Shown here piece after piece: positions 14,972 through 36,130 of a stretch of DNA of 40,938 nt; within the stretch, counting starts at the first letter, position 1; every line of letters starts with the position of its first letter. Origin of the DNA: a virus. Under the pieces are notes generated by a model. The model saw only the letters and a program-made list of their open reading frames with translations. It was not told where the DNA came from and ran no database searches. The stretch is taken from the IMG/VR virus record IMGVR_UViG_3300010354_000200, positions 1 through 40,938 of that record; one strand, 5' to 3'. The translations under genes were made by a program, and so were the position numbers.

Positions 14972-15646
14972 ATGCGTTTTCATGAAATGGATCAGCCACA
15001 GGTTGGCGATATATTAGAAATTGAAATTGGCGACGAAATCGTCGAAGCAGTCATCGCTGAAATTAACGGTGACGAAATTATCAGTGAAACTGACAATGCC
15101 ACTGGCGGTAATTTGCTACTTGAGCATATGGCTAGTTCAAGCAAAGCAGTTATCAAAGGCATGCGCGAACTCAGCGGCGATCAATATGTTGGACTTTACA
15201 AGTTTGGTAATGATGTAGCAGGACATGATGGCAAAAAACAAACTGCTCCCAATGGTGGATCCGATGACGAAATCAGCGACAAGCCTTTTGCTTATGCTTA
15301 TACTGATGTAGAAAAAGATATGATCAAAGGTGCTGATCCCAAAGCTAAACAAATTACTAGCGACAAAAGCGAAGAGCCTAAGAACATGGATGAAAGCGTA
15401 ACTGAAGCTGAATATCAGGGTCGCGAAGTTAAACTAGGCAAACCCATGCAGGGCGATGTTAAGAAGTTTAAAGTCTATGTACGCAATCCCAAAACAGGAA
15501 AGACTATCAAAGTAAACTTTGGTGATCCTAACATGCGTATTAAGAAAAGCAATCCCAAGCGCCGTAAAAGCTTCCGTGCTCGCCACAATTGTGCTAATCC
15601 CGGACCACGCACAAAAGCTCGCTACTGGTCATGTCGTAAGTGGTAA
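14972..15646 (+). CDS. Modular head-associated-type protein with basic Cys-pair tail
   Basis: 224 residues. The N-terminus MRFHEMDQPQVGDILEIEIG resembles the starts of the 22999-35651 cassette proteins. The central part is acidic and soluble. The C-terminus is strongly basic, with KRRKSFRARHNC, then ARYWSCRKW, that is two cysteines in an Arg/Lys-rich context that could bind nucleic acid or metal. Similar tails occur, as I recall, in uncharacterised proteins of T4-like phages. No ribosome binding site is visible; the ATG follows a terminator and promoter element directly. I infer a DNA-associated or packaged virion protein; no enzymatic function is visible. Confidence 0.6.
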   Translation: MRFHEMDQPQVGDILEIEIGDEIVEAVIAEINGDEIISETDNATGGNLLLEHMASSSKAVIKGMRELSGDQYVGLYKFGNDVAGHDGKKQTAPNGGSDDEISDKPFAYAYTDVEKDMIKGADPKAKQITSDKSEEPKNMDESVTEAEYQGREVKLGKPMQGDVKKFKVYVRNPKTGKTIKVNFGDPNMRIKKSNPKRRKSFRARHNCANPGPRTKARYWSCRKW

Positions 15647-16288: not shown

Positions 16289-16732
16289 ATGAAAAAGCTA
16301 TTAACTTTATTAGCATTTGCTGTAGTATCAACCACAGCAGTTGCACAAAAGCAACCGCAAACAGTCTGCTACGATTGGAAAATTAATCGCGTAGTGGATG
16401 GCGACACAGTAGAAGTTGCCACTCCTTGGGTTCCAGATCCTATGCCTAAGAAGATGAGTATTCGTGTGTTTGGTGTCGATACTCCTGAAAAGGGTTTCCG
16501 TGCTAAATGCGAAAGCGAAGCTCAACGCGGTGCTGCTGCTACTGTTTTTACAAAGAAAGTAATTACAGAAAGCAAAACTGCCAGAGTATGCGTTGTCGAC
16601 TGGGATAAGTTTGGTGGTCGTATGCTAGGGGACATTGTGTTAGATAACAATGTTAGCTTGCGTGGCTTGCTAATACAAAACGGTTTCGCTCGTGAATATT
16701 ACGGCGAAGCAAAACAAAGTTGGTGTAACTAA
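16289..16732 (+). CDS. Secreted thermonuclease (staphylococcal nuclease family)
   Basis: 147 residues. A signal peptide (MKKLLTLLAFAVVSTTAVA, cleavage near residue 19) is followed by the SNase fold: RVVDGDTVEV (34-43, metal Asp39), RVFGVDTPE (59-67, catalytic Arg59, Asp64 and Glu67), DKFGGRMLGDI with the second arginine, and LIQNGFAREYYG. All key residues appear present. The FGGR has one extra residue compared with the usual YGR. Four cysteines are left in the mature part (27, CESE, RVCVVD, SWCN), which fits a periplasmic protein with disulphides. It would cut DNA or RNA in the periplasm, perhaps against competing phage DNA at entry, or recycle nucleotides at lysis. Confidence 0.88.
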   Translation: MKKLLTLLAFAVVSTTAVAQKQPQTVCYDWKINRVVDGDTVEVATPWVPDPMPKKMSIRVFGVDTPEKGFRAKCESEAQRGAAATVFTKKVITESKTARVCVVDWDKFGGRMLGDIVLDNNVSLRGLLIQNGFAREYYGEAKQSWCN

Positions 16733-17560: not shown

Positions 17561-18523
17561 ATGAAAAAACTACTATCCTTTATCTTTTTATTGGCCAGTA
17601 TTACCACTGCCAGTGCATTTACTCCTCCAAAACAAATAAATGTAACCGTGGGCTTTGCTCCGGGATCAGGCAACGAAGTTAGTTTTAGAGGTATCGCAGC
17701 GATTATTGAGAAGAATAATCCCAATATAAACTTTGTTATTACTAATCGTCCGGGCGCAGATGAAGTCATTGCTATGAACTTTTTTGCCCAACAACCCAAA
17801 GATGGCTCGCATCTTTATATTCCCAGCCAACAGGGTGCATTTACAATTATTGAACAATGGTATCCAGATCAGCTCAAAGTAAATCCAATGGATTTAGAAT
17901 TGATTACTACTATCGCTAAGAGCCCATTGGCCATTGTTGCTAATGTTAACAGCAAAACTAATACTCCACGCGAACTATTAGACCGAGTAAGAAATACCAA
18001 CGAAAACATCAATTTTGCTATTGGTGCCAGCGCACATCGATTGTTATTTGAATACATGATGGATCATGGCAAGGGTAACAGCAACCGAGTTCAAAGTGTG
18101 CTTTATAGAGGACCTGCTCAAGCTGTACAAGATGTAGCCGGTGGTCAAGCCGAGTTTGGTATTATGCCAGTAGCAGTTTCCTATCCTTTGTATAAGGCAG
18201 GAAAAATCAAATACATTGGCCTAGCCAGTGATTACAAAATCAGTGCTATTCCTGAAGTTCCATTGTTAAAGGAAGCCATTCCAGGCCTAACAATTTATGG
18301 TGCTTGGATGATTGCATTGCCTCCTGAAACTCCAAAAGAAATTGTCAAATACTATCAGGATTTGTTTGTAACAGCTATTCGCAGTCCTGAAGCTAAACAG
18401 TTCTTTGAACAAAATTTAATGATTGCTATTCCAGAAGAACAGAGTCCCGAAGGTGCTAAAAAATTCATCAATCATATTCGAACTGTCTGGATGCCTTACG
18501 CTAAAAAGATAAAGCCTAATTAA
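17561..18523 (+). CDS. Bug/TctC-family periplasmic solute-binding protein
   Basis: 320 residues, the usual length for the family. A signal peptide ends at ASA (residue 19). The mature part begins with PPKQINVTVGFAPGSGNEVSFRGIA, the family start (phosphate-like loop with P-G-S/G). Then NRPGADEVIAMNFFA, NPMDLELITTIA, FAIGASAHRLLFEYM, LYRGPAQAVQDVAGGQAEFGIM and YIGLASD follow the Bug/TctC pattern for strand order and ligand loops. Such proteins bind carboxylates, amino acids or nicotinamide for tripartite (TTT) or other uptake systems, and are hugely expanded in Burkholderiales. No transporter membrane genes are adjacent, so it would serve host TctA/B. It is a likely acquired metabolic gene. Confidence 0.88.
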   Translation: MKKLLSFIFLLASITTASAFTPPKQINVTVGFAPGSGNEVSFRGIAAIIEKNNPNINFVITNRPGADEVIAMNFFAQQPKDGSHLYIPSQQGAFTIIEQWYPDQLKVNPMDLELITTIAKSPLAIVANVNSKTNTPRELLDRVRNTNENINFAIGASAHRLLFEYMMDHGKGNSNRVQSVLYRGPAQAVQDVAGGQAEFGIMPVAVSYPLYKAGKIKYIGLASDYKISAIPEVPLLKEAIPGLTIYGAWMIALPPETPKEIVKYYQDLFVTAIRSPEAKQFFEQNLMIAIPEEQSPEGAKKFINHIRTVWMPYAKKIKPN

Positions 18524-22998: not shown

Positions 22999-24276
22999 AT
23001 GAAAATTCAGCAAATTACAGAAACTGTTGACGGCAAGAACCTACATTTAGAGCATCTTGACGATGAGATATGGAATCGCGGCCATCAAGGTGCTGTAGAA
23101 GCTATACAATATCTAGAAGGTGCCGCAGGCCTATTGCTAGGCAGCAGCGATCAACGCTATTTTGCCACTAAAAAATGGGATGGTAGTCCAGCATTACTAG
23201 TCGGTGAAGATCCCGAAACTGGCGAATTTGTCATGGGTGACAAAGGCATCTTTAGTACTACTAAAGAAAATAGAATTTACAAAGCCAGTGATGTTGATCG
23301 TGTAAAGCCAGATAAAAAAGTCGGCGGCGAAACTGTTGATCGCAGCGGCCTTCGCAACAAGTTAAAGATGGCCTTCAACTATCTTAAAGACTTAAACTAT
23401 AACGGCAAAATATTACAAGGCGACTTGCTTTGGACACAGGGCGATGGCACCAGTGGTTTTCAAATGATCGATGGCGAAAACTACTGGACATTTACTCCTA
23501 ACTTATTAACCTATGCTGTTCCTGCTGACACTCCATTAGCACAGCGTATGAGCCGAAGTAAAGTGGGTATTGTATTTCATACTACATACGAAGGCGGCCC
23601 GACTATACAAGACATGGAAGCCAGATTTGGTGCAGACATAAGTGATATAGGATCTAGTCCCTATGTTTATGTTCGTGATGCTGCTATTAAAGATGTCAGC
23701 GGTAGCGTAACTCTAACACGCAGAGAAAGCCTGATGTTAGAAGTTGCTATTGTTGAATTGTATAGTTACTTAGAAGGCATTGGCGAAGAGACATTTGCTT
23801 GGTTAGATAGCAGCATTGCTGGACACAGCATCCGCGACCTAATTAAGATTGACATCAACAAAATGGTTCGTGCTGGTGCTATGGATCAACCAGAATTGTA
23901 TGTCAAGCAATTCATGACTAGACTTGCTGATCGTTTAGAAGCTGACATTGCTAAACTAAAGACACAGGCAGGACAAGAGCGTAAGCGTGCCGCACAAGAA
24001 GAAGCATTAAAGTATATTCAACAGCATGCCGAAAACATTGAAAATGTTTATTTGTTGTTTATCGGCATTCAGCGTGTCAAAGATGTACTACAGCGTCATT
24101 ATGCTGCTATTCGACAGATTGGCACATTTATTGCTAGACCCGACGGTAGTTTTGATGTTAAACCAGAAGAAGGTGTAGTCATTGTTGACCATTTAGGTAA
24201 AGGCGGCAAAGAGGCTGTTAAGATTGTAGATAGACTAGACTTTAGTCGTGAAAACTTTGCAAAGGCTAGACAATGA
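22999..24276 (+). CDS. Ligase-like nucleotidyltransferase with CTS-like N-terminus
   Basis: 425 residues. KKWDGSPALLVG (near 58-64) is the K-x-D-G motif I of the ATP-dependent DNA/RNA ligase and capping-enzyme superfamily; the lysine would carry AMP. GDKGIFS, ILQGDLLWTQGD and VGIVFHTTYEGG could be motifs of the central sheet. EEGVVIVDHLG (about 390-400) and EAVKIVDR (about 405-412) fit motifs IV and V. A large helical insertion of roughly 150 residues (about 240-380) separates them, unlike standard ligases. The start MKIQQITE|T has an I-x-E site like the T4 capsid-targeting peptide. Its product could be an RNA ligase carried in the virion. Confidence 0.65.
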   Translation: MKIQQITETVDGKNLHLEHLDDEIWNRGHQGAVEAIQYLEGAAGLLLGSSDQRYFATKKWDGSPALLVGEDPETGEFVMGDKGIFSTTKENRIYKASDVDRVKPDKKVGGETVDRSGLRNKLKMAFNYLKDLNYNGKILQGDLLWTQGDGTSGFQMIDGENYWTFTPNLLTYAVPADTPLAQRMSRSKVGIVFHTTYEGGPTIQDMEARFGADISDIGSSPYVYVRDAAIKDVSGSVTLTRRESLMLEVAIVELYSYLEGIGEETFAWLDSSIAGHSIRDLIKIDINKMVRAGAMDQPELYVKQFMTRLADRLEADIAKLKTQAGQERKRAAQEEALKYIQQHAENIENVYLLFIGIQRVKDVLQRHYAAIRQIGTFIARPDGSFDVKPEEGVVIVDHLGKGGKEAVKIVDRLDFSRENFAKARQ

Positions 24277-24896
24277 GATTACTAGAAATAAAAAAGCCTC
24301 GAGTAATAGTTGTCTATGGTGGCGGCTTTCAACCCTTTCACGAAGGACACATGAGCAGCTATAGGCAAGCCAAAGCAGCATTTCCCAGTGCCGATTTCTT
24401 TGTTGCTGCTAGTAATGTAACTACTGAGCGTCCATTTCAGTTTGCTGAAAAACAATTTCTAGCTAAACAAGCAGGTGTTACTGATCCTTTTGTTCAAGTA
24501 GGCACTACAAGTTATGTTAATGATGCTGGCCGTAAAGTAACTAGTACACCATTAAATCCTTTAGAAATTTTACAAGGCTATAATCCTGATAGAGACATAT
24601 TAGTTATCGTTCGCAGCGAGCGTGATCCTATGAAAACCACTGCTACCAGTTATTATCAGCCATGGACTGGTGAAGATACCGCTCAACCATTCGGTCAACA
24701 TGCTTACATTTATGTAACTAAGAAACATGATTTTAAAATCTGTAACCGGGGTGTATGTAGTGGCAGCGAAGTTAGAAAGATATACGGCGATGCTGATGAT
24801 AAAGAGAAGGCAAAAATTCTCAAAGACTTATATCCTAACAGCAGTCAACAAAAAAGAATTAAACAAATATTTGATCGTAGACTAGGAACAGCCTGA
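24273..24896 (+). CDS. HxGH nucleotidyltransferase (NMNAT/PPAT-like)
   Basis: 207 residues, overlapping the ligase-like gene by ATGA. VVYGGGFQPFHEGHMSSY (14-31) is the nucleotide-binding start with HxGH (23-26). CSGSEVRKIYG (near 161-171) stands where the family has ISxTxxR. The core is that of adenylyl- or cytidylyltransferases such as NMN or pantetheine-phosphate adenylyltransferase. The N-terminus MRLLEIKKPR is the cassette type. Pairing with a ligase-like enzyme suggests nucleotide or NAD chemistry, but the substrate is not evident. Confidence 0.78.
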   Translation: MRLLEIKKPRVIVVYGGGFQPFHEGHMSSYRQAKAAFPSADFFVAASNVTTERPFQFAEKQFLAKQAGVTDPFVQVGTTSYVNDAGRKVTSTPLNPLEILQGYNPDRDILVIVRSERDPMKTTATSYYQPWTGEDTAQPFGQHAYIYVTKKHDFKICNRGVCSGSEVRKIYGDADDKEKAKILKDLYPNSSQQKRIKQIFDRRLGTA

Positions 24897-26629
24897 TGAA
24901 ATACCGTGAAATATTAGAACAAGTTATTACTGAAATTAACATGAGCCCAGGCGTGTTACAGCGCCTAGCTGCCGACATTGATGCCAGAGCTGGTATGGAA
25001 TTTGAAATGATTATTCCCGATGCTGGCGGCGATGAAGATTTTGAATCAGAACCTGACTATGATCAAGACGAACGCATTCGTCGACTTGACGACATAAGAC
25101 AATTTTTCTACGACGGCAATTTCAACGGGCGTAGAGATGTTGAACGCTTAATGGATGAAATTTGGCAAGACTACGAAAGCAGTGATTGGCTCAGCGAAAA
25201 GAAACAAGAAGAATGGGATGAAGTAACAGTAGATCACATAAGAGATTTAGTCAGTCGTGACTATGAAGAAGAATTTAAAGAACAAGCTGAAGAAGAGGCC
25301 AAAAAACAAGCCCCGGAGTTTGGTATGAATGACGAAGAACTCAGGGATGCCATTGAACAGCGTTTTAAACAATTAATCAATGACAAAGTAGAAGAAATCC
25401 TAGGCGATGGCGGCAAGGAATATGATGACGCCTTTGATGAGTGGGAAAACGAACAGTGGCTAGAAACTTACAACGACGATGACATGTTCACTGACTGGCT
25501 AGACAGCGAAGGCATCACTCATATGAGCGAAATCGCATCCAGATATGAAATAACCTGGCCGCACTGGACCGAAGGCGGCGAAGAAGGCGAAGTTGATGTA
25601 GAACAAGTGGCAGACGAGTTTGGATCATTTATTGGTAGGCCAGTAAATTACAGTCGCAACTATCACGGTGCCAAAAGAACTACAGATGGCTATTCAGTTG
25701 AACCTGACAGTAGCCTAAGTCCAGACGATCAGCGTGACGGCGGTTTAGAATTTATTAGTCCTCCACTACCTGTTAACGAAATGTTCAGCGACTTGGAAAA
25801 AGTCTACAAGTGGGCAAAGCGTACAGGTGCTTATACCAATGACAGCACTGGCCTACATATCAATGTCAGCGTTCCCGGTTGGGATGGTGACTTAAACAAG
25901 CTAGACTATGTTAAGCTAGCACTATTGCTAGGTGACGAATATGTCCTACAAGATTTTGGTCGTGCTGGTAATACCTATGCCAAGAGTGCTTTACAAATAG
26001 TTAAAAGTCATATTCAACAACGACCCGAAGATGCCGGTGCTTTATTACAGCAAATGAAACGACATTTGAATACCGCTGCTGCCAAAAGCATACACACAGG
26101 TGTCACTAACAAGTATACCAGTATCAATGTCAAAGGTGGCTACATAGAATTCCGTAGTCCGGGTGGCGATTGGCTAAACGAAGATATCGAAAAGATCAAA
26201 ACTACTCTGTTACGATTTGTAGTAGCTATGGATGCTGCTGTTAATGAAGAAAAATATAAAGATGAATACGCTAAGAAACTTTATAAGTTATTAGCCCCTA
26301 GCAATGACAGCAGCGATACGCTACAATACTTTGCTAAGTTTAGTGCCGGCGAACTACCCAGGTCAGCATTGGCCAGCTTTGTTCGTCAAGCACAGCTACA
26401 GCGTAACTTGAAGAAAGGTCCTACTGGTGCCAAGTATTGGTGGGAAGTCAGCAAGTCAGACAGTTATGCCAGTATCGAAGTCGTGGCCACTAACAAAGAA
26501 GAAGCCATTGAACTCGCCCGCGGCGAATACCCAAGCTGGCGTTATTCTACAAACATCGTTGCTAAACCCTTAAGACCCTACGACAGTTCACCAATAAAAG
26601 CCACAGCCGGTGCTCCGCAAAGGATTTAA
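24896..26629 (+). CDS. Amidoligase-like protein with acidic N-terminal region
   Basis: 577 residues. It starts MKYREILEQVITEINMSPG; two L/I-x-E sites occur within 14 residues. AGMEFEMIIPD (about 32-42) followed, much later, by TGLHINVSVPGW (about 315-326) and YIEFRSPGGDWL (about 418-429) resemble the amidoligase (COOH-NH2 ligase, glutamine-synthetase-like fold) pattern of G-x-E-x-E, G-x-H-x-x and E-F-R. The region between about 45 and 260 is extremely acidic. A C-terminal segment (about 515-555) may be a separate small domain. Proposed activity: ATP-dependent peptide-bond formation on an unknown substrate. Confidence 0.65.
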   Translation: MKYREILEQVITEINMSPGVLQRLAADIDARAGMEFEMIIPDAGGDEDFESEPDYDQDERIRRLDDIRQFFYDGNFNGRRDVERLMDEIWQDYESSDWLSEKKQEEWDEVTVDHIRDLVSRDYEEEFKEQAEEEAKKQAPEFGMNDEELRDAIEQRFKQLINDKVEEILGDGGKEYDDAFDEWENEQWLETYNDDDMFTDWLDSEGITHMSEIASRYEITWPHWTEGGEEGEVDVEQVADEFGSFIGRPVNYSRNYHGAKRTTDGYSVEPDSSLSPDDQRDGGLEFISPPLPVNEMFSDLEKVYKWAKRTGAYTNDSTGLHINVSVPGWDGDLNKLDYVKLALLLGDEYVLQDFGRAGNTYAKSALQIVKSHIQQRPEDAGALLQQMKRHLNTAAAKSIHTGVTNKYTSINVKGGYIEFRSPGGDWLNEDIEKIKTTLLRFVVAMDAAVNEEKYKDEYAKKLYKLLAPSNDSSDTLQYFAKFSAGELPRSALASFVRQAQLQRNLKKGPTGAKYWWEVSKSDSYASIEVVATNKEEAIELARGEYPSWRYSTNIVAKPLRPYDSSPIKATAGAPQRI

Positions 26630-26630
26630 T

Positions 26631-26819
26631 ATGAAAATCAACGAAATAGACTTAAACAAAGCCAAAGTTCAAAAGGTAACTCGCAAGCGTGCTGATGATT
26701 CTACAGAAGTTAGATATCATGTTAAAGACAGTGACGGTGTTACTGTAAAAATATTTGACGACGCGGCTGTGGCTAAGAAGTATCTCAGCGACCATAGATT
26801 TGAATTAAACAAAGATTAA
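26631..26819 (+). CDS. Small basic protein of the cassette
   Basis: 62 residues from the ATG at 26631, which has AAAGGA upstream; an earlier in-frame start inside the previous gene is less likely. The N-terminus MKINEIDLNKAKVQKV is of the cassette type. The rest alternates basic and acidic residues and ends FDDAAVAKKYLSDHRFELNKD. No known domain is recognised. It may be a packaged peptide or a small partner of the amidoligase-like protein. Confidence 0.6.
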   Translation: MKINEIDLNKAKVQKVTRKRADDSTEVRYHVKDSDGVTVKIFDDAAVAKKYLSDHRFELNKD

Positions 26820-26820
26820 T

Positions 26821-27009
26821 ATGAAAAGAATACACCTACTAGTAGCTTCTCTAGCTGTGTCAGCTAGTTTCTTTGTGGGTTTAATTATTGGTATGATTGC
26901 CATGAGAGATTTTATGGCTGAAGAATTTATTGTTATTGATCCTGCTAAATTGCAACAGTATCAACAAATACAACATCAACAGACTAGACCGCAGGGACTA
27001 ACAGCATGA
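26821..27009 (+). CDS. Small single-span membrane protein
   Basis: 62 residues with one hydrophobic segment at about 6-28 (LLVASLAVSASFFVGLIIGM), flanked by KR at the N-terminal side. The remainder is a glutamine-rich tail (QQYQQIQHQQ). It lacks the cassette N-terminal pattern, so it is unlikely to be packaged like its neighbours. It overlaps the next gene by ATGA. The function is unknown; an inner-membrane anchor is all that can be said. Confidence 0.6.
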   Translation: MKRIHLLVASLAVSASFFVGLIIGMIAMRDFMAEEFIVIDPAKLQQYQQIQHQQTRPQGLTA

Positions 27010-28247
27010 GATTGTTGGAAGTTAAGCAAGGACTAGCACTAACTATCTTCGATATCGACGATACGCTATTCCACACCACCGCCCAAATCAAAGTAATCAA
27101 GAACGGGCAAATTGTTCGTAGTTTAACTAACCAAGAGTTCAACAACTACGAACTACAGCCAGGTGAAGAATATGACTTCGGTGAATTCCGCAGTGCTGAA
27201 AAGTTTAATAAAGAAAGCCAACCTATTCGTCCTATGATTGCTAAACTAAAAGCAATCTTAAACAATGCTGGTGACAGCCGAGTAATTATGCTAACTGCTC
27301 GTGCTGATTTCGACGATAAAGAAAAGTTTCTAAGCACCTTTAAGAAGTATGGTATTGACATGAGCCGTGTGCATGTACATCGTGCTGGCAACTTGCCAGG
27401 GGATGAAAACCCTGCTTACAAAAAAGCAGTATGGGTTCGCAAGTATCTAAATACAGGAAAATATAACCGTGTTAGATTGTATGATGACAGCAAGACAAAT
27501 TTAACAGTTTTTAAAGCATTGGAAAAAGAATATCCCAATGTCAAATTTGAAGCATACTATGTTGGACCCGAAGGTCAAGCCACAGTACATGAACAAGAAG
27601 TATTCGAAGACTACGATACTATTGAGCAAACACTAAGAGCGGCAGGTTATGAAGAACTAGGCAGCGGCGCAGATGCTACAGTATGGTCTAAAGATGCCGG
27701 ATCAGTTATAAAAATTATTGTTCCCGAGGAAGAAGGAGCGTTATCAGCAGCAGCTGAAACATTTAAAAAGTTCTATGAATTCTGTATGCAACATCAAGAT
27801 GTTGAATGCTTGCCAAAATTTATTCCTATACAGGGAAAACATTATACTACATTCAAAATTAATGACGAAGAATTTTTACAAATCAGCATGGAAAGACTGT
27901 ATCCATTCAAGTCCGGTTCATTAAATGAAGGCATAGTATATTTGTTTAGTGATTATGCTACTAAGAAAATGCCATGGGAACAAGTAAAGTCTGAACTTAG
28001 TCAACCAAAGACATGGCATGATACAGAATACTTTAGCAGAAGTGCTAATCAGTTTGCCTTAAAGATGTCCGGTCTTAAAGGTATGGCCGAAGCTAAACTA
28101 TCATTGCTATATACTGTTATGACATTATTGTACCATACAGGTCGTATCAATAAACTAGGCTGGGACTTACACACTGAAAATGCTATGCAGCGTCAAGACG
28201 GAACAATAGTTATTATTGATCCTTGGTTTAATTCGGAGAAGGACTAA
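27006..28247 (+). CDS. HAD phosphatase-kinase-like fusion
   Basis: 413 residues. Residues about 10-190 form a HAD domain: IFDIDDTLF (nucleophile Asp16, acid Asp18), LTARADF (motif II) and RLYDDSKTN near 158 (motif IV Asp pair). This resembles the phosphatase half of polynucleotide kinase-phosphatase. Residues about 205-413 resemble a protein-kinase/aminoglycoside-phosphotransferase fold: LGSGADATVW (near 219, glycine loop), VIKII (lysine), GWDLHTENAM (near 386, catalytic Asp and Asn) and IIDPW (metal Asp). The N-terminus MRLLEVKQG is of the cassette type. A kinase and phosphatase in one chain could modify a host target reversibly; that is inference. Confidence 0.75.
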   Translation: MRLLEVKQGLALTIFDIDDTLFHTTAQIKVIKNGQIVRSLTNQEFNNYELQPGEEYDFGEFRSAEKFNKESQPIRPMIAKLKAILNNAGDSRVIMLTARADFDDKEKFLSTFKKYGIDMSRVHVHRAGNLPGDENPAYKKAVWVRKYLNTGKYNRVRLYDDSKTNLTVFKALEKEYPNVKFEAYYVGPEGQATVHEQEVFEDYDTIEQTLRAAGYEELGSGADATVWSKDAGSVIKIIVPEEEGALSAAAETFKKFYEFCMQHQDVECLPKFIPIQGKHYTTFKINDEEFLQISMERLYPFKSGSLNEGIVYLFSDYATKKMPWEQVKSELSQPKTWHDTEYFSRSANQFALKMSGLKGMAEAKLSLLYTVMTLLYHTGRINKLGWDLHTENAMQRQDGTIVIIDPWFNSEKD

Positions 28248-28248
28248 C

Positions 28249-28890
28249 ATGAGATTCGACGAATTTATCAACGGAGCAAAACAGCCAGTAAAGCCTGAAC
28301 AGTTTACTGACATGGAACGGGCTATTATGGAAGGTGGCGGCAGTTTACCAGAAACACCTGCGGCACCAAGAACTAGTGCCCTTAGACAAGTTATAGCAGA
28401 AGACACGGAAGAAAAATATAATGGCATGATCATGTCAATCGCGGAGGGCGAAGACGGATTCAAACTCACAGCTAAAACACCAGATGGACAAAAATTAGGC
28501 TTCGTTGAATTTTCTTTTGATACTGAAGGTACAATACGAGCAGAAGAACTAGAAGTGTTTGAAAAATATCGTGGTCAGGGCATTGGTAAAGCCATGTATG
28601 ATTATGTAAAAAGTCTGGGATATAAAATTGCCAGGAGCAGCGAACAAACTCCTGACGGTGCAAAGTTTTGGGATAAGTATAAACCAGGCCAAAGAATCTG
28701 GGAACAAGATATAGAAGAAAACTTTGCTGATGGTAAGGTTAAGGGTAAAAGTCGCCCCGGTAGAGTAAAGCGTGCCGGTGCTAGTTGTAGTGGATCTGTT
28801 ACTGACTTGCGAGCAAAGGCCAGCAAGTACGGCGGCGAAAAGGGTAAAATGTATCATTGGTGTGCTAACATGAAGGGCGGCAAAAAATGA
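28249..28890 (+). CDS. GNAT acetyltransferase with Cys-pair C-terminal module
   Basis: 213 residues from the ATG at 28249 (RBS GGAGAAGG); an ATG 33 bases upstream lies inside the previous gene. The N-terminus MRFDEFING is of the cassette type, with IME|G and IAE|D further on. The middle (about 60-140) is a GNAT fold: VEFSFDTEGTIRAEELEV, then EKYRGQGIGKAMYDYVKSLG with the R/Q-x-x-G-x-G/A acetyl-CoA loop. The C-terminus is basic, GRVKRAGASC...YHWCANMKGGKK, with two cysteines. It probably acetylates a protein or small molecule. The tail could bind nucleic acid. Confidence 0.78.
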   Translation: MRFDEFINGAKQPVKPEQFTDMERAIMEGGGSLPETPAAPRTSALRQVIAEDTEEKYNGMIMSIAEGEDGFKLTAKTPDGQKLGFVEFSFDTEGTIRAEELEVFEKYRGQGIGKAMYDYVKSLGYKIARSSEQTPDGAKFWDKYKPGQRIWEQDIEENFADGKVKGKSRPGRVKRAGASCSGSVTDLRAKASKYGGEKGKMYHWCANMKGGKK

Positions 28891-29450
28891 AAGTCGCAGA
28901 GATTGTTGTCGAAGCCAAAGTTCCGTCAGTTAGAGATCAAATCATTGCTGATGTAAAAAAGCATGGCGGCGATGTTAACGAATACTTCGTGCGTTTTACT
29001 AGCATGGACAAACTGGGATTTAGTGCTGGGCAAACTTTCGGGCAAACACCCGATGTCGATGATCCTAAATTTGATGTAGACTACATTGGGACTGGAACAG
29101 GTCGTAGAGCACTTTGGTTTTATCCATTGTCTACTTACTTAAAAGACAAACAAGTTTATGCCAGCGAACAGCCTTATGTCTGGTTAGTTAAATTAAAACC
29201 CGATGCTTGGCTACAAACTGTAAAGCGTGGCGATAATCAAGTTATACCAGCACCGCAGGGTAAACAGCGTGTAGGAATATTACGCAAAAGTTCGCCTCCT
29301 GCTGCTATATTTTTTAAGCCTGGCTATGATGTTGTGGGCAAATACTATGATTACGCAGGGCAACATCAGCGTCATGGGCAAGTAAAAGGGGCTCCTAAAA
29401 AGCCGGGTATAGTTTCAAAGCTGTTAGGTATGCTCAGTAAAGGTAAATAA
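28887..29450 (+). CDS. Cassette protein, unknown enzyme-like domain
   Basis: 187 residues, ATGA overlap with the acetyltransferase gene. The N-terminus MKVAEIVVE|A closely follows the capsid-targeting pattern. The body is a single compact domain: EYFVRFTSMDKLGFSAG, GTGRRALWFYPLSTYL and PYVWLVKLKPDAWLQ. I considered an ADP-ribosyltransferase-like fold (T4 packages Alt, an ADP-ribosyltransferase), because the R...YPL...YVWLV layout looks loosely similar, but I cannot point to the R-S-E or H-Y-E triad. The C-terminus is basic (KKPGIVSKLLGMLSKGK). Confidence 0.6.
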   Translation: MKVAEIVVEAKVPSVRDQIIADVKKHGGDVNEYFVRFTSMDKLGFSAGQTFGQTPDVDDPKFDVDYIGTGTGRRALWFYPLSTYLKDKQVYASEQPYVWLVKLKPDAWLQTVKRGDNQVIPAPQGKQRVGILRKSSPPAAIFFKPGYDVVGKYYDYAGQHQRHGQVKGAPKKPGIVSKLLGMLSKGK

Positions 29451-29456
29451 TATATT

Positions 29457-30812
29457 ATGCGATTACTAGAACTTAAATCATTAGTAGAGGCTTCTGGCTT
29501 AACTGCCAAGGAATTTTCTAAATATGTAGGCGATGTAAAAAAAGATCGAGTGCCTGTCTTTTTAAGCAAAGTCGATCGCGGAAGTCCTTTTGAATTAGTT
29601 GCCGGCGGAACTGTTGTAATTGATAGATCAGAATTACCAAGGTTAAAAAAGCTGTTTGCAGCAGGGGACTTCGACTTAGTGGGCAAAATCAAAACTGTCG
29701 GCGGTGGCACCATAGTTCTTGGTAAATTAAAGAAAACGGGCGAGTTCGGTGGATTAACTGATGCTGGTGCAGAAAAGCTAGCTAATCGAGGTGAAGTTGC
29801 TGAAGGCATCATGGGAGCAGGATTATTTGCTAAACTTGCTGCTCGATCTGGCGGACGCATCAATATTGTAGGACCGGACGAGATATGGGCCGTAATCGAT
29901 CAACTTCGTGTGAGCGGAGATAATGAATATTCTACTACTAAGCGAGATGCTGGTAAAGTGGTAGTAAATGACAGCATTATTTTTACTCTAAAATTAAAAG
30001 AGGGACCTTACAAAGATCTAATGAATCCTGCAAAGCGAAGCTTAATGGATGATTTAGTACAAAGTGTAGTTGAATTTTCAAACAGTCCCGATGCAGAAGA
30101 ATACAGCAAATATTTTTACTTAAACGGCAAGCCTGATATTATTAATGTTATAGCCGACGGCGTTAGTGAAGAAACAACTAGCAAAGTAGATGTTAAGGTA
30201 ATAGTAACAGATCCTAAAACCGGAAAAAAATCAACTCGTGTACTTAATTTAAGCTTAAAGGCCGGCGCTGATCAATTTGGACAAGTAGGTGGTGGCAAGG
30301 CCGCAGTTGAAGGTTCACAATTTGAAAGTCAAAGAACTCTGTGGTCTCACTTTGGTATTAATGTAGATAGCTTAAAAGATGACTTCGAAAGAATCCGTCA
30401 GGACTCTGGCTTATTCAAGGCCGTAGCTATGATGTATATTAATGCTAATAGTATGTTTAGCGAACTGCTAAGTGGTGATTACGATGAAGAAGAATACTTG
30501 TACCTCAAAGATTTTGTAAAGGCTATTAATTATTTTGCCACCTTAAATGTGCCTGGTATTTTGTTAGTAACTTTAGAAAAAGGCACCTACGATGTATTAA
30601 ATTTTGACCTACTCGAAGACAAACTTAAGAGTATTAATTTAGATAGTAGATTTAGAGAAACGCTAACAAATCCTCAAATTGAAATATTTGATAAGAACAC
30701 AGGAGCTACTCTAATACAAATTCGTGCTAAAATTGAAGGTGGCACATATCTAAGAAACTACATTGAAAAAGGACCCCTAATGTCCAAGTTAATCAGTGTA
30801 AAGCGTTCCTAA
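29457..30812 (+). CDS. Cassette protein, possible PD-(D/E)xK-like nuclease
   Basis: 451 residues. The N-terminus MRLLELKSLVE|A fits the L-x-E pattern. About residues 235-285, SKVDVKVIVTDPKTGKK, then TRVLNLSLKAGADQFGQVGG resembles the two metal-binding strands of restriction-type nucleases: an Asp in the first and S-L-K in place of E-x-K in the second. A long helical C-terminal part follows, with REKL-like charged segments, ending KLISVKRS. If active it would cut DNA in the host early in infection. The assignment is weak; the change from E-x-K to S-x-K is the main doubt. Confidence 0.55.
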   Translation: MRLLELKSLVEASGLTAKEFSKYVGDVKKDRVPVFLSKVDRGSPFELVAGGTVVIDRSELPRLKKLFAAGDFDLVGKIKTVGGGTIVLGKLKKTGEFGGLTDAGAEKLANRGEVAEGIMGAGLFAKLAARSGGRINIVGPDEIWAVIDQLRVSGDNEYSTTKRDAGKVVVNDSIIFTLKLKEGPYKDLMNPAKRSLMDDLVQSVVEFSNSPDAEEYSKYFYLNGKPDIINVIADGVSEETTSKVDVKVIVTDPKTGKKSTRVLNLSLKAGADQFGQVGGGKAAVEGSQFESQRTLWSHFGINVDSLKDDFERIRQDSGLFKAVAMMYINANSMFSELLSGDYDEEEYLYLKDFVKAINYFATLNVPGILLVTLEKGTYDVLNFDLLEDKLKSINLDSRFRETLTNPQIEIFDKNTGATLIQIRAKIEGGTYLRNYIEKGPLMSKLISVKRS

Positions 30813-30839
30813 ATTTTAAAATAAATCGACACAAAATGA

Positions 30840-30846
30840 CTAAATA
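30840..30846 (+). promoter_or_regulatory. CTAAATA element just before a start codon
   Basis: GACTAAATAATAC ends directly before the ATG at 30852; five bases separate the element from the start codon. It is in the only gap of the 22999-35144 block with room for a promoter (30813-30851). A transcript from it would have almost no leader. Confidence 0.4.
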
Positions 30847-30851
30847 ATACT

Positions 30852-31142
30852 ATGAAAATAGTAGACCTTATTGTGGAAGACGCAGGCGGCATGGGAGCAG
30901 GCAGTGTAGCTGCTGTAGCCATGCCTTTTGTACGAGCACATCGTAAAAGAACAACTCGCGGTATGCGTAAAGAAAGCGGGAACGAAATACTACGCCGCGT
31001 ACCTTACAACAACATCGCCGAAGAACTATATGCTGCACTAGAAGAAAAGTGGAGCGAAAAATACAAGCGTAGCATCAACTGCGACAATCCCAAAGGATTC
31101 AGCCAGCGTGCTCATTGCCAAGGAAAGAAAAAACATGGATAA
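30852..31142 (+). CDS. Small basic cassette protein with Cys pair
   Basis: 96 residues. The N-terminus MKIVDLIVE|D fits the I-x-E rule. A glycine-alanine segment (AGGMGAGSVAAVAMPFV) follows, then a very basic body (RAHRKRTTRGMRK). The C-terminus is KRSINCDNPKGFSQRAHCQGKKK: two cysteines in a basic context. I recall similar tails in uncharacterised T4-like phage proteins. With high positive charge and small size it resembles T4 internal proteins IPI-IPIII. No enzyme motif is present. Confidence 0.65.
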   Translation: MKIVDLIVEDAGGMGAGSVAAVAMPFVRAHRKRTTRGMRKESGNEILRRVPYNNIAEELYAALEEKWSEKYKRSINCDNPKGFSQRAHCQGKKKHG

Positions 31143-32319
31143 AACTAAAGCCCGTAAAATGTATGAACTTGCTGATCGTTTAAGCAAGGTAGATACCAGC
31201 AAACTAAATGAGCAACAGCTAGTTGAACACACTGGCATGATTAAGCGTTTAGGTGAAGAACTAAAGGCAATGAGAGGTGTGGCGGAAGCAGCCGATAATG
31301 TAGACGAACGAGCAACAGAAAATACTGCATATAGATTTGTAGATATGTTAGCAAATACAGATGTGGGTCGTGCCGCTAGAAATCTAACACATCAAGGTAA
31401 ATTGGGGAAACGCCAAAACAATTATGTTACTATCACACCACAAGGCACGGCTCAATTTTCTATACCATTTCAAGTAATGGGAAGCGATGACCAAGCAGTT
31501 GCTAATAGTAAAAATTACAAAAGTCTTAACAATTTGTTTATGCAACTCATGTGGCCAAAACGCCAAAAAGAAGGCTGGTTTGTATCACAACCACGAACTA
31601 CACAGCACGGTGGTGCAGATGAGCAAGGATTTACTATACACACATTTGATTTTACTATGTATAAGCCGGCTGGCGGGCAAGGTGTGGCGGAAGCAAGAGA
31701 TACTGGCAACGACATAGATGATATTGTAGAAGATTACCTAGACTATCTCGAGCAACATGGCGGCTTTGACTATCCTACCCGTGAAGAAGAAAAAGCTTCT
31801 ATTATGGCAGACATAGAAAGCGGCGCTTTGCACCCTGACGAATTAGAATATGCTATGTCAGGCAACAATGATATGAATGAAGCGCCAGAAGAAGATTTAC
31901 ATACCAGCTATAATGTTGTTAAGTTAGGCGGAGCATTAAATATTGATCCACGCGGTTTGCGTATGGCCATTGCCCGCGGCATGCAGGGCAATCCAACAAG
32001 AACAGACATGATGACATTGTCAAATGCTTTCTTAAATTTACTAAAGAACAGCGACGATGCTGCTATTCAGAAATTCGCTAACTTAATTAAGAGCGGCAAT
32101 CCTCGTGCTGTTCCACAAGAAAGCACTGCTGCTGTAGCAGAAGCTAATGCCTTTGTTGACGCTATGCGTCAAGTTAAGAAGGGCGAGAAGTTTACTGTGG
32201 GCGGAAAAGAACATACAAAAACTACAAACTTCGGTGAAGGCAAAGTAGAAGAAGCAATCAGTACTGAAGCCTACGACAGACTAAAGCGAGTCTTCGACTT
32301 CAGCAACTTTAAAGGTTAA
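31135..32319 (+). CDS. Acidic modular protein with repeated VAEA sites
   Basis: 394 residues from the ATG at 31135 (AAGGAAAG upstream); the earlier in-frame start lies inside the previous gene. It lacks the usual cassette start (MDKTKARKMYEL). Three separate sites of the form G/A-VAE|A (GVAEAADN, GVAEARDT, AVAEANAF) divide the chain into modules of 60-170 residues. One module reads GDDQAVANSKNYKSLNNLF. Another, DLHTSYNVVKLGGALNIDP, resembles a helical domain. If the prohead protease accepts V-x-E, the protein would be cut into several peptides in the head. Confidence 0.6.
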   Translation: MDKTKARKMYELADRLSKVDTSKLNEQQLVEHTGMIKRLGEELKAMRGVAEAADNVDERATENTAYRFVDMLANTDVGRAARNLTHQGKLGKRQNNYVTITPQGTAQFSIPFQVMGSDDQAVANSKNYKSLNNLFMQLMWPKRQKEGWFVSQPRTTQHGGADEQGFTIHTFDFTMYKPAGGQGVAEARDTGNDIDDIVEDYLDYLEQHGGFDYPTREEEKASIMADIESGALHPDELEYAMSGNNDMNEAPEEDLHTSYNVVKLGGALNIDPRGLRMAIARGMQGNPTRTDMMTLSNAFLNLLKNSDDAAIQKFANLIKSGNPRAVPQESTAAVAEANAFVDAMRQVKKGEKFTVGGKEHTKTTNFGEGKVEEAISTEAYDRLKRVFDFSNFKG

Positions 32320-32322
32320 TAT

Positions 32323-33699
32323 ATGAAATTATTTGAATTATTTGAAAGCCCATTACTAGGCGGAGCACAAAATCTAAAAGCCATTGCCGCTGCTGTGGCT
32401 AACAGCAGCAGTGCTGAAATTGATTTAGCTGGCGAGCCAGTAACACTTGAGTATCCCGAAGCACGATTTGTATATGGTCTATACAAACAGGCTTTGCAAG
32501 ATGGTACTCAGGATCGTTTTATGCAAATGCTTAGTGATCCGCAGAGTTTCGATCGCATCATGAGTAAGATGGGCAGCATGCTATATAAGGATCGTGGACC
32601 TGAAATGGCACAAGCCGCTGCACAGCGTATCGGCCAGCCTGGTGTACAAGAAGCAGGCATGGACATAGATCAGCCTGCAAGTTCTGGTAACGAAAATACA
32701 CTAAAACATATTGTCAAGCGTTTTCCTAAAGAGGTCAGAGATTTCGCCGACGGCAGAGATGAACTTAGCCCCGACTTATACGAAACACTATTTGATTACT
32801 ATATGTTACATGGGGAAATGCCTTATGGTATTGCCAAAGGTCGTACCGGTGATCCTTTTGAATGGGTAACACAACGTTTCGATCAAGATGTAGAACAATA
32901 CCTACACTTGCACGAAAGCCTAACAGAAGGTAAGAAACAAGTTGCCGAGCGTTGGGATGACGATGATGACGATTGGTGGGGTCTAAAGGATAAAACACGC
33001 AAGACTAGTATGGGAACAACTGTTACTCAAACCGGTAAAGGTGTTGTTCACAAAGGCAAGTATGGCAGTGAATATCAAGGCGACGATGGCGATGACGATG
33101 ACTATGACGAGTGGGGCAAACTAAAGCCTGCTGCTAAAAAAGCTCGTGCTGCTGCCAAAGTTGCTGCGGTAGCCGCTGAGCCAAAACGCAGCCGTGGTCG
33201 TCCAAGTGCTGCTATTAAGAGCAGCGATGGTGGTGAAACAATTTCTGACTACAGCACATGGTATCGTAAGAGCAAGCGTAGTCACCCAGAGCGTAAGATT
33301 GTCGGCAGTGCTAACAAAGCCGTAGCTGTAATTCCTAAGGGCAAGAAGTTTGCTGTTGTTGGACATTGGGACGGCGGTTCTGGTAACATCCATGCCAAGG
33401 CCGGCGAACTAATGACTGCTGACCAATTAAGCGGATTTAAGAGTGCTAAAGGTCGTCCAAAGAAAGTCCGTGAGTTCATTGAAAATCTACGCTATGTCGT
33501 AGAAGCCAAGAACCACATGGGCGAAACAGAATATAACACTTACAGCGGTTGGAAGGCTGCTTGTAAGAAGGCGGGTGCCGACGAGTTCGAAGGTGACCGT
33601 GATATTTGTCAAGCCAAGAAAGGCGGCAAGGGAGTAGGTGAGTGGGACGGTGCTGTAGGCACAGTCTATGATGACGCACATAAGAAGGCAGCAAAATGA
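32323..33699 (+). CDS. Cassette protein with AT-hook-like motifs
   Basis: 458 residues. The N-terminus MKLFELFE|S fits L-x-E. The first half is helical and moderately charged, with HIVKRFPKEVRDFADGRDEL. Acidic clusters follow (WDDDDDDWWGLKD and DDGDDDDYDEWGKLK), then an alanine/lysine-rich linker and two AT-hook-like cores (KRSRGRPSAA and SAKGRPKKV), each with G-R-P. The C-terminus holds SGWKAACKKAGADEFEGD, then DICQAKKGG and GEWDGAVGTVYD, a Cys-pair module. Minor-groove binding is likely. A DNA-condensing or scaffolding role in the head is inferred. Confidence 0.65.
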   Translation: MKLFELFESPLLGGAQNLKAIAAAVANSSSAEIDLAGEPVTLEYPEARFVYGLYKQALQDGTQDRFMQMLSDPQSFDRIMSKMGSMLYKDRGPEMAQAAAQRIGQPGVQEAGMDIDQPASSGNENTLKHIVKRFPKEVRDFADGRDELSPDLYETLFDYYMLHGEMPYGIAKGRTGDPFEWVTQRFDQDVEQYLHLHESLTEGKKQVAERWDDDDDDWWGLKDKTRKTSMGTTVTQTGKGVVHKGKYGSEYQGDDGDDDDYDEWGKLKPAAKKARAAAKVAAVAAEPKRSRGRPSAAIKSSDGGETISDYSTWYRKSKRSHPERKIVGSANKAVAVIPKGKKFAVVGHWDGGSGNIHAKAGELMTADQLSGFKSAKGRPKKVREFIENLRYVVEAKNHMGETEYNTYSGWKAACKKAGADEFEGDRDICQAKKGGKGVGEWDGAVGTVYDDAHKKAAK

Positions 33700-34649
33700 G
33701 ATTAACTGACATCAGCGAAGGCGTAGCAGGTCCTAAGAATTGTTGGCCTGGTCATAGAAAAATTGGCACACAACCTGGCACAGGAAAAAACGCCGGCAAG
33801 CGTGTCAATAAATGTGAAAAGATCAAAGAGAGTGTTAATATAGAAGACACATACAAAGGTTGGAAGTTTGAAGTTGAATTTCAAAAAGAAGATGATCGCA
33901 ATGTGACATTCTATAGTGCTATTAGCCCCGAAGGTAAAACTCATATGTTGCCCAAGCGAGCAACCAAAGAACAGTTTAGACAGTTTGTAGACAGTAAAAC
34001 TGTCAAAGAAGGCCAAGTAACTAAAACTAAAACTGGAATTATTCATCGAGCCACAGACAAGTATGGAGCTGGAGAAACTGGCTTAGAAAAAGATGCCATG
34101 GATTTAACGGCCTTAAACAAGTATCTGACCGGCCGACTAGACAAAAGCATGGGTGTTAAACATGACCATGGTAATAAACGAAAAACCGAAGAAGGTCTAG
34201 GCGACGAAGTTAATCCTGCTGATGTTGGTGAATATGATCGCGAAGGCGACATGGCCAAACAAGATCTAGCTACTGCTGCCGATGCTGCTAATGAACTACG
34301 CAGTATATTAAACAGTGACGAAAACTTGCCAGAATGGGTTCAAGCAAAGATTACCAAGGCTGTTGATTATTTAGATACTGCTCGCGACTACATGAAGTCT
34401 AAAGAACAAGGTGTAACTGAAAGAGTCAGAGATCCAGAAGATTGGGACGAAGGTACTGATAAAATACCTAATAACATTGAAGTTAGTATCAATGGTCGTT
34501 CATGGAAAGTTTTTGCCGGCCGAGGCTTGCCCGACAGTCAAGAAGAACGCAATCATTTAAATAAAATGAAACAGTGGGCAGCAAGCAAGAGTGCTGCTAC
34601 TGGTAAGCAATGGGAAGTGCGTTTAACTGGTGCACCAATTAGTCGTTAA
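33696..34649 (+). CDS. Modular cassette protein with N-terminal Cys pair
   Basis: 317 residues, ATGA overlap. MRLTDISE|G starts it. Next comes GPKNCWPGHRK, then NAGKRVNKCEKI, two cysteines in a basic stretch. Further modules: GWKFEVEFQKEDDRN (sheet-like), TGIIHRATDKYGAG (shared in form with GVVHKGKYGSEY of the previous protein), and VGEYDREGDMAKQDLAT, followed by LPEWVQAKITKAVDYLDTA (helical). The C-terminal domain has NIEVSINGRSWKVFAG and GKQWEVRLTG. A mosaic of small domains with no catalytic motif suggests a structural or DNA-packing part of the head core. Confidence 0.65.
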   Translation: MRLTDISEGVAGPKNCWPGHRKIGTQPGTGKNAGKRVNKCEKIKESVNIEDTYKGWKFEVEFQKEDDRNVTFYSAISPEGKTHMLPKRATKEQFRQFVDSKTVKEGQVTKTKTGIIHRATDKYGAGETGLEKDAMDLTALNKYLTGRLDKSMGVKHDHGNKRKTEEGLGDEVNPADVGEYDREGDMAKQDLATAADAANELRSILNSDENLPEWVQAKITKAVDYLDTARDYMKSKEQGVTERVRDPEDWDEGTDKIPNNIEVSINGRSWKVFAGRGLPDSQEERNHLNKMKQWAASKSAATGKQWEVRLTGAPISR

Positions 34650-34661
34650 AGTGAGCCAGCA

Positions 34662-35144
34662 ATGAGATTATACGAACTACTAGAAAGCCTAGACAAAGAT
34701 CAAAAACGTGCGGGTCAAGTTGCCGGCGAAGAAAAGGCTCGCAAGATTGGCCCAGTATTAGGTAAGGCTCCTAAACAGCATCCTTATAAAGGTCGCCTAG
34801 TAGGTGAAGAAGTCGAAGACATTGACGAAGCTAGTTTAGCTACAATGAGATCGTATTTTGACGGCGACGAAGACGCAGAAGATCCCAGCAAGTCAACTAT
34901 GATGCGTAAGTATTATGCTGCCCTGGACCAAAAGCTCAAAGATAAAAATAAAAAGAAGCCCGAAGATATTAACAAGTTAGACAAAAGCAATTATGTAGTA
35001 ATCAACAAACGAGTTAGCGAAGTTGCTCCTCCTGGTATGGAAGATTGGATCAAAGATCGTAAAGCAGATTTCAAAAAGCGTTATGGTGATCGTTGGAAAA
35101 CTGTATTATACGCAACTGCTTGGAAGCGTCACAATAAAGAATAA
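34662..35144 (+). CDS. Small basic-acidic cassette protein
   Basis: 160 residues. MRLYELLE|S fits L-x-E. PKQHPYKGRLVGEE and DIDEASLATMRSYFDGDED are followed by a lysine-rich middle (KLKDKNKKKPEDINK). The C-terminal module DRKADFKKRYGDRWKTVLY, then ATAWKRHNKE, is one I recall as recurrent in uncharacterised phage proteins. No catalytic site is seen. It resembles a packaged basic protein. It is the last gene before a strong terminator. Confidence 0.65.
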   Translation: MRLYELLESLDKDQKRAGQVAGEEKARKIGPVLGKAPKQHPYKGRLVGEEVEDIDEASLATMRSYFDGDEDAEDPSKSTMMRKYYAALDQKLKDKNKKKPEDINKLDKSNYVVINKRVSEVAPPGMEDWIKDRKADFKKRYGDRWKTVLYATAWKRHNKE

Positions 35145-35199
35145 TACGCATGAACAAAATATTTGAATTCTATTTTGATATGTATGTTCAGCTTTTATT

Positions 35200-35226
35200 A
35201 GGCATGTATTACATGCCTTATTTTTT
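35200..35226 (+). terminator. Intrinsic terminator ending the cassette operon
   Basis: AGGCATGT (35200-35207) pairs perfectly with ACATGCCT (35211-35218) with an ATT loop, followed by TATTTTTT. It lies 56 bases after the stop at 35144. The gap 35145-35246 holds nothing else certain; a short reading frame from 35150 runs through the hairpin. Confidence 0.88.
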
Positions 35227-35246
35227 GGCAGGAGCACAGACACCAA

Positions 35247-35651
35247 ATGAAATACTGGCAGGAATATGTAAGAAGTAGTTACGAACTGGTGTTCGAAGCC
35301 GAAGGCAAGTCTCATATATATCTTGATCAACATATAGAAAGTTATCTAGTAAGACTATTAGCTAAATGGTTTGATCGCAACGATATACCACCAGAAACTC
35401 CTGTGGCAATATTGTTAATGACAGCTATGCAAAAGCCACGCGAACAAGAATTAGCTAATGTTGCCGACATTTGTTTATTTTACGATGGATTTAAAATCAA
35501 ACATCAGCGTTGGCCCAGCGTAAACTATTATAAGGATTTAGGAACAACAGCATATGGCATGGCTTATGTTACTAGCAATGATAGTTTGTATAATCAATTA
35601 GAACAAAACTTTACAGTTTGTAGTAAAATTTTATCAAATATAAAACTATAG
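35247..35651 (+). CDS. Hypothetical protein with CTS-like start
   Basis: 134 residues. It starts MKYWQEYVRSSYELVFE|A, which resembles the T4 peptide MKTYQEFIAE|A in its first seven residues. AGGAG stands at 35230-35234, twelve bases before the ATG, which is a long spacing. The body is helical with HIESYLVRLLAKWFDR, QEL ANVADICLFYDGF and WPSVNYYKDLGTTAYG. It is separated from the main cassette by a terminator. I do not recognise the family. It may be a further packaged protein or a cytosolic one. Confidence 0.6.
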   Translation: MKYWQEYVRSSYELVFEAEGKSHIYLDQHIESYLVRLLAKWFDRNDIPPETPVAILLMTAMQKPREQELANVADICLFYDGFKIKHQRWPSVNYYKDLGTTAYGMAYVTSNDSLYNQLEQNFTVCSKILSNIKL

Positions 35652-35689: not shown

Positions 35690-36130
35690 ATGGACGAATT
35701 ATCTCAAGCACTCAAAAAAGTATTAGCTAATCATTATGCTTTTAGCATTAAGGCACAAAACTTTCATTGGAATGTCGAAGGCCCAGACTTCAGTCAATAT
35801 CATGACTTATTTGCAAAAATCTACGAAGAAGTTTATGGCGCAGTAGATGTCATTGCTGAAAGAATTCGTACATTGGGTGCCTATGCTCCAGGTAGTTTTA
35901 CTCGTTTCAGCCAACTTGCTGATATTGAAGATCAAGTTGAAATTCCTAATGCCATGTCAATGCTACAAAAACTGCTCAGTGACATTGATGTTATTCAACA
36001 AAGTATCATGACCTGCTATCATCTAGCAGAAGAAAATATGAATCACGGACTAAGTAATTTAATGGCAGAACGCCAAGATGCATTTGCTAAACATGCATGG
36101 ATGCTGACAGCCACTTTGAAAAATAGATGA
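35690..36130 (+). CDS. dps: Dps-family ferritin-like protein
   Basis: 146 residues, near the usual Dps length. The four-helix pattern begins with SQALKKVLANHYAFSIKAQNFHWNVEG. The ferroxidase ligands of the intersubunit site are recognisable: His in FHWNV, His in QYHDLF, and Asp and Glu in VDVIAERIRTLG. Dps makes a 12-subunit shell that oxidises iron with hydrogen peroxide and can bind DNA. In a phage it could protect replicating DNA or packed genomes from oxidative damage, or handle iron. It overlaps the next gene by ATGA. Confidence 0.88.
   Translation: MDELSQALKKVLANHYAFSIKAQNFHWNVEGPDFSQYHDLFAKIYEEVYGAVDVIAERIRTLGAYAPGSFTRFSQLADIEDQVEIPNAMSMLQKLLSDIDVIQQSIMTCYHLAEENMNHGLSNLMAERQDAFAKHAWMLTATLKNR

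Follow-up and report, generated by a model that had tools for sequence, protein, structure and literature searches.

Thirteen genes between positions 22999 and 35651 of the window, the whole 40,938-base stretch of viral DNA analysed here, encode proteins whose bodies are mutually unrelated behind a near-identical short N-terminus. This shared N-terminus is probably a capsid-targeting propeptide of the T4 type, which would recruit modular cargo for the head, be cleaved by an S77 protease and allow delivery of the cargo with the DNA. Comparison of sequences among relatives suggests that the label sends proteins into the virus head for delivery into the host cell along with the DNA, and the behaviour of the tag as a modular, cleavable propeptide is supported. 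The evidence consists of the tag motif, its modularity, the conservation of the junctions, the protease genes of relatives and an association of the tag with virion proteins in two published proteomes. For the window phage itself, core recruitment, cleavage and ejection are proposed by analogy, and the function of each cargo protein, including an effector role, is likewise putative.

The tagged block and its genomic setting

The window comes from a jumbo T4-like myovirus of bacteria, of whose genome it covers only a part. It carries ClpA-like, tail-fibre, cargo, DNA polymerase and clamp genes, with no head genes in its 40,938 bases. The nearest relatives of its B-family DNA polymerase are those of Sinorhizobium phage Phosso and Agrobacterium phage Atu_ph07, which are jumbo T4-like myoviruses of 469-490 kb. 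A megablast search of 22999-35651 against phage genomes gave no match, and the region of Atu_ph07 between the ClpA and DNA polymerase genes contains tail-fibre genes and no tagged block. The tagged genes and the late-promoter-like site of the window are listed below, with a slash marking the presumed cleavage site.

14972..15646, plus strand: tagged protein outside the 22999-35651 span, MRFHEMDQ, recognised by PSSM and motif; phrog_7595 C-terminus
22999..24276, plus strand: DUF6267 protein with KWDG ligase-like motif, tag MKIQQITE/T; PF19782, E 8.8e-75
24273..24896, plus strand: HxGH nucleotidyltransferase, tag MRLLEIKK, no nearby cleavage site; PF01467
24896..26629, plus strand: amidoligase-like protein, tag MKYREILEQVITE/I; PF12224, E 1.5e-8
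26631..26819, plus strand: 62-aa protein, tag MKINEID, no site
27006..28247, plus strand: HAD phosphatase fused to a protein-kinase-like domain, tag MRLLEVKQ; phrog_415, phrog_15752
28249..28890, plus strand: GNAT protein with basic Cys-rich C-terminus, tag MRFDEFIN, no nearby site; PF00583, E 4.7e-5
28887..29450, plus strand: body with weak ART-like fold, tag MKVAEIVVE/A; 11 homologues, AF2 model
29443..29449, plus strand: late-promoter-like TAAATA preceding 29457; similar sites at 22970, 30840 and 35676
29457..30812, plus strand: phrog_3560 protein, tag MRLLELKSLVE/A; E 2.1e-29
30852..31142, plus strand: small basic protein, tag MKIVDLIVE/D
32323..33699, plus strand: low-complexity, charged protein, tag MKLFELFE/S
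33696..34649, plus strand: protein with basic paired-Cys stretch, tag MRLTDISE/G
34662..35144, plus strand: small charged protein, tag MRLYELLE/S
35247..35651, plus strand: 134-aa protein, tag MKYWQEYVRSSYELVFE/A

The tags are 8-17 residues long, and all 13 N-termini quoted in the first-pass annotation were located at or near the positions it gave. The same annotation had called these genes consecutive; the 13 tagged starts are real, but two genes within the span are untagged, at 26821-27009 (hydrophobic, MKRIHLLVASL) and 31135-32319 (MDKTKARKMYEL). Its dozen packaged effector enzymes survive as a modular tagged set that includes enzymes, but enzyme domains can be recognised in only about half of the tagged proteins of the window, the others resembling small core or basic proteins. 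Its expectation that the tag would be enriched in this block alone did not hold, given the tagged gene at 14972 and the further tagged clusters of a 364-kb relative, G002, at about 266-268, 291-299 and 337-339 kb.

Genes were called by one rule and their N-termini then tested. The motif M[KR]-hydrophobic-x-[EDQ]-hydrophobic, which was chosen post hoc, is present in 12 of the 15 block genes and in 1 of the 35 other window genes (Fisher 4.5e-8), confirming the earlier claim of a common N-terminus on unrelated bodies; among internal Met codons treated as pseudo-starts, it occurs in 1 of 225. In the syntenic block of the relative G001, which is homologous to that of the window, the motif is present in 11 of 15 genes and in 1 of 163 elsewhere. 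Because the motif was post hoc and the G001 block homologous, independent tests were sought in the modularity of the tag, its junctions, the protease and virion proteins. In G002 the clustering of tagged genes gave a permutation p of 0.006. Recent nucleotide duplication of the starts was ruled out, as codons and upstream DNA differ among them.

Chance, or compositional bias of gene starts, is a most improbable source of the pattern. Many genes (18-21%) start with M[KR], and in Phosso up to 1.5% of real starts are tag-like, so that single matches are weak; the concentration of the motif within one genome and the clustering in G002 led to rejection of an M[KR] bias, and the conservation of junctions across diverged tags strongly disfavours chance.

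TAAATA-type sites lie upstream of four genes of the region, as would suit late expression, and 10 of the 24 plus-strand late-promoter-like sites precede a start by 8-45 nt, a range of distances that takes in 4.3% of the window. Short Lys/Arg-rich stretches with paired cysteines recur at 28249-28890, 30852-31142, 33696-34649 and 14972-15646 (for example NCDNPKGFSQRAHCQGKKK and NCWPGHRKIG...KC), sit also on other tagged bodies in relatives, and are possibly DNA-binding modules. Beside the block, at 35690-36130, is an untagged Dps/ferritin-like protein (PF00210), kept at the locus in many relatives and possibly a DNA-protection or packaged protein. Elsewhere, the window encodes a UvdE-type UV endonuclease (11612-12643, PF03851), a signal-peptide protein that is thermonuclease-like by eye and kept in relatives (16289-16732), and a secreted protein that, by eye only, resembles TctC-type periplasmic solute-binding proteins (17561-18523, and 43570-46092 in G001, where an apparent membrane partner gene, also judged by eye, lies alongside).

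Presumed cleavage junctions and the S77 protease

Nine of the 13 tagged window proteins have an LxE-type site no later than residue 17, in line with the first-pass statement that most of these starts contain an (L/I)-x-E-type site. None is nearby in the proteins at 24273, 26631, 27006 and 28249, and these four tags may therefore be retained; in the 27006 protein, an internal junction, EVFE/D, precedes the kinase domain. Across the clade, [LIVMF]xE[AGSTDE] is present within residues 6-20 of 51% of 129 distinct tagged N-termini and in 4-7% of downstream windows, a comparison whose p-values overstate independence because many of these N-termini are homologous, and in which the tag selection pattern, by forcing a hydrophobic position 6, favours sites ending at residue 8 and not the 48 ending at residue 9. 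Alanine is the commonest residue following the site glutamate (23 of 102, against a background of 6.7%).

In the family of the 28887 protein, with nine tagged starts and two internal copies among its 11 homologues, the junction glutamate is invariant and the next alanine near-invariant. The internal copies are buried in chains of 718 and 840 residues, with the junctions VEE/AKVPN and VNE/AKVPS. An AF2 model from the alignment of the 11 homologues has residues 1-10 disordered and the body folded; fold searches with it gave weak ART-like matches only (E at least 0.13), and a PDB profile search found nothing.

PF03420 (S77, the T4 gp21 family) was not found in the window, a fragment without head genes. 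It is found in G002, a further relative (G003), Phosso, Atu_ph07 and eight further T4-like phages including T4, so that the lack of a gp21-like protease, which the earlier reading had named as a ground for abandoning it, does not apply to the lineage. The peptide MKVAEIVVEAKVPS is an example of a candidate substrate of the G003 protease.

It is unlikely that the tagged proteins instead belong to the prohead core or the head structure, as scaffold or DNA-condensing proteins, and undergo processing in the head without being delivered as effectors. Such a role would suit several bodies that are small, charged, low-complexity or basic with cysteines (30852, 32323, 33696 and 34662), and a small tagged protein of G003 (41508-41765, MRLRELLGE/TATAGATSAGNIAS) aligns to the major capsid protein (132314-133483) around the presumed cleavage site YLAE/SATGGATSAGNVAT, scoring 71, while none of 500 shuffles exceeded 52. 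Scaffolds, however, would not be expected to have Nudix, ADP-ribosyltransferase, HD, kinase, nucleotidyltransferase or amidoligase bodies. The window protein at 30852 occupies the place equivalent to that of the small G003 protein.

Exchange of tags and bodies among relatives

The tag of the HAD-kinase protein differs across more than 12 homologues, and the HAD homologues carry MRLLEVKQ, MKILDIITE/R, MRASDFINE/R, MRAKEFSQ or MKKFLDFLQE/E, each just ahead of the first strand. The kinase domain, fused in the window, stands alone elsewhere with MKISELLNE/A or MILADFLLE/A. For the nucleotidyltransferase, the tag is absent in L124 and L128, where homologues start at M1, and others have MLLRELFE/N or MLLSELLE/A; DUF6267 has a tag in Melnitz, C48C1 and DLP_6 and lacks one in S-PM2, P-HM2, S-CRM01 and S-SZBM1. 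The amidoligase junction E/I[ND]M[SR]P is kept in relatives bearing different tags, and the phrog_3560 homologue of G002 has the tag MRFTELKE/A. Other tagged cargo in relatives includes Nudix proteins, a zeta-type kinase (L121), cell-wall hydrolases and a GDSL-type lipase. A short conserved N-terminal peptide common to otherwise unrelated proteins, by which T4-type CTS cargo is recognised, is present.

In L137 (6824-9080 and 12175-13485), eight consecutive genes are tagged, among them a RelA/SpoT-like HD protein (MRAHEITE/D) and a Nudix plus ADP-ribosyltransferase protein (MRLLELKE). Long multidomain proteins uniting several cargo domains are encoded in L121 (6768-9290), L124 (6969-9125) and L128 (3050-7600), with gp21-like sites directly ahead of modules in these chains, such as VNE/AKVPS and LEE/ASGYIP.

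Virion proteins of relatives and known systems

Among the T4 controls, IPII and IPIII start MKTYQEFIAE and gp24 starts MAKINELLRE. A strict T4-register pattern, with the spacing of MKTYQEFIAE, was set aside, as it matches only 2 of the 15 block genes; the jumbo tag is therefore a shifted variant, one residue off. The T4 DNA end protector gp2 (NC_000866), which starts MAIFQIINE/S, also fits the tag pattern, and L120:22062-22886 is listed with it.

The virion list of S-CREM2, obtained by mass spectrometry (PMC10665884), includes a SAM hydrolase (starting MKDFDSFLEE), a kinase (MKRFDAFLTE), a cytidylyltransferase (MKNFSSFLTE/A), ORF13 (MKDLHSFLTE) and ORF136 (MQTFSMFFSE), and the MK.F..FL.E starts of the enzymes resemble that of T4. 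The T4-register pattern is found in 5 of the 28 detected non-structural proteins and in 4 of the 145 undetected ones (p 0.006), most of the detected non-structural or hypothetical proteins being untagged; contamination of the list was considered possible by its authors (PMC10665884). In S-CREM2, RFASFMAE/A also lies near the N-terminus of a Cas9-like protein (OR473000, 7704-10313) whose annotation is that of a virion protein. For S-SZBM1, the virion list (PMC9146016) contains the tagged cytidylyltransferase (MRFRQFIIE/A) but not the untagged DUF6267 protein encoded beside it; another neighbour, ORF139, was detected with no obvious tag, and the tag is therefore not the sole route. The S-CRM01 kinase, reported in virions as cited in PMC10665884, starts MISFDQFLSE, if the annotated kinase is assumed to be the one reported. 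For Atu_ph07, 131 virion proteins are reported, mostly from three gene clusters (PMC6102473); its amidoligase relative (MRWQDISSKKLTELKMNSS) adjoins the portal gene and, by gene-number count, falls inside one of these clusters.

These virion proteins bear on a further alternative, in which the N-terminus has no relation to the head and instead docks its protein onto some other complex of phage or host (e.g. replisome, chaperone or membrane). The neighbours of the block are indeed DNA polymerase and clamp genes, not head genes, and some tags have no cleavage site. Docking is nevertheless very unlikely, since E/A junctions are conserved even within polyproteins and the tag matches those of S-CREM2 and S-SZBM1 virion proteins and of the T4 internal proteins.

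Under capsid targeting, unrelated proteins would be brought into the prohead core at a late stage of infection by their short amphipathic start, M[KR]-h-x-[ED]-h-(h)-x-E. Most of them would be cut after [LIV]-x-E by an S77 protease of the gp21 type, so that mature cargo would lie amid the packaged DNA, and this cargo would enter the next host along with the genome and act ahead of early gene expression. The block would be a modular cargo locus, whose bodies may gain, lose and swap tags between phages and may sometimes fuse into polyproteins that retain the cleavage junction.

The case for a general sorting code is evenly balanced: T4-like phages of aquatic and soil bacteria may mark head-loaded proteins by a short N-terminal tag, so that the injected enzyme repertoire would be readable from sequence, with bodies swapping freely behind the tag or fusing into protease-released polyproteins. 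If so, the repertoire would include Nudix, ADP-ribosyltransferase, SAM hydrolase, HD, kinase, nucleotidyltransferase, Cas9-like and other proteins. Capsid targeting by the tag offers a mechanism for enzymes that recur in cyanophage virion proteomics and were inseparable from contamination for the authors. It gives a sequence rule for predicting which of the many uncharacterised T4-like or jumbo phage genes are active as infection begins, where anti-defence and host-takeover enzymes are likely to be found, and the rule is directly testable on existing mass-spectrometry data.

A search of open-access literature for capsid targeting with jumbo phages or cyanophages (subscription papers being outside it) found no such system described, and DUF6267 is absent from the open-access papers searched. 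On that scope, the apparently new elements are the size and enzyme richness of the set, the exchange of tags, the interchange of tag and polyprotein, and the link to unexplained cyanophage virion enzymes.

Among known systems, the T4-like cyanophages S-CREM2, S-SZBM1, S-SCSM1 and S-CRM01 (PMC10665884, PMC9146016, PMC9602691) share cytidylyltransferase and kinase cargo, several of them tagged, and a DUF6267 neighbourhood adjoining DNA polymerase and primase genes; they have fewer cargo genes, DUF6267 is often untagged, and the three papers report detection only, with no targeting mechanism. The polyvalent proteins (Iyer et al. 2017, PMC5512222) are likewise predicted to form an arsenal of several injected enzymes, kinase, ART and GNAT domains among them, and the L133 kinase weakly matches Kinase-PolyVal. 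Polyvalent proteins unite several effector domains per polypeptide, whereas the window domains, except in the HAD-kinase, are in separate tagged genes, and long chains are found only in L121, L124 and L128. The ejection proteins of phiKZ and SPN3US and the Dar proteins of P1 are also head-packaged, with N-terminal targeting or propeptides. The window tags lack the long (often over 100 aa) propeptide of the phiKZ/SPN3US type, four SPN3US head proteins having propeptides of over 100 residues (PMC5694885), and the P1 Dar proteins have no common N-terminal consensus (PMC9024508), unlike the shared window tag.

The closest parallel is with T4 IPI-IPIII and Alt, which carry a capsid-targeting sequence according to Mullaney and Black (1996), as cited in PMC5694885 and PMC3012670. 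Both systems have an N-terminal tag of 8-20 residues with an MK start, hydrophobic and acidic positions and, for most of the window tags, an end at an [LIV]xE site, an S77 protease in the lineage, and unrelated bodies behind one tag. Unlike the T4 internal proteins, the window block has many more cargo genes and recognisable enzyme domains, its tags are shifted by one residue, often start MR and in several cases have no site, and its relatives have polyproteins. The principle is already known from the T4 internal proteins, and the window version is much broader and enzyme-rich.
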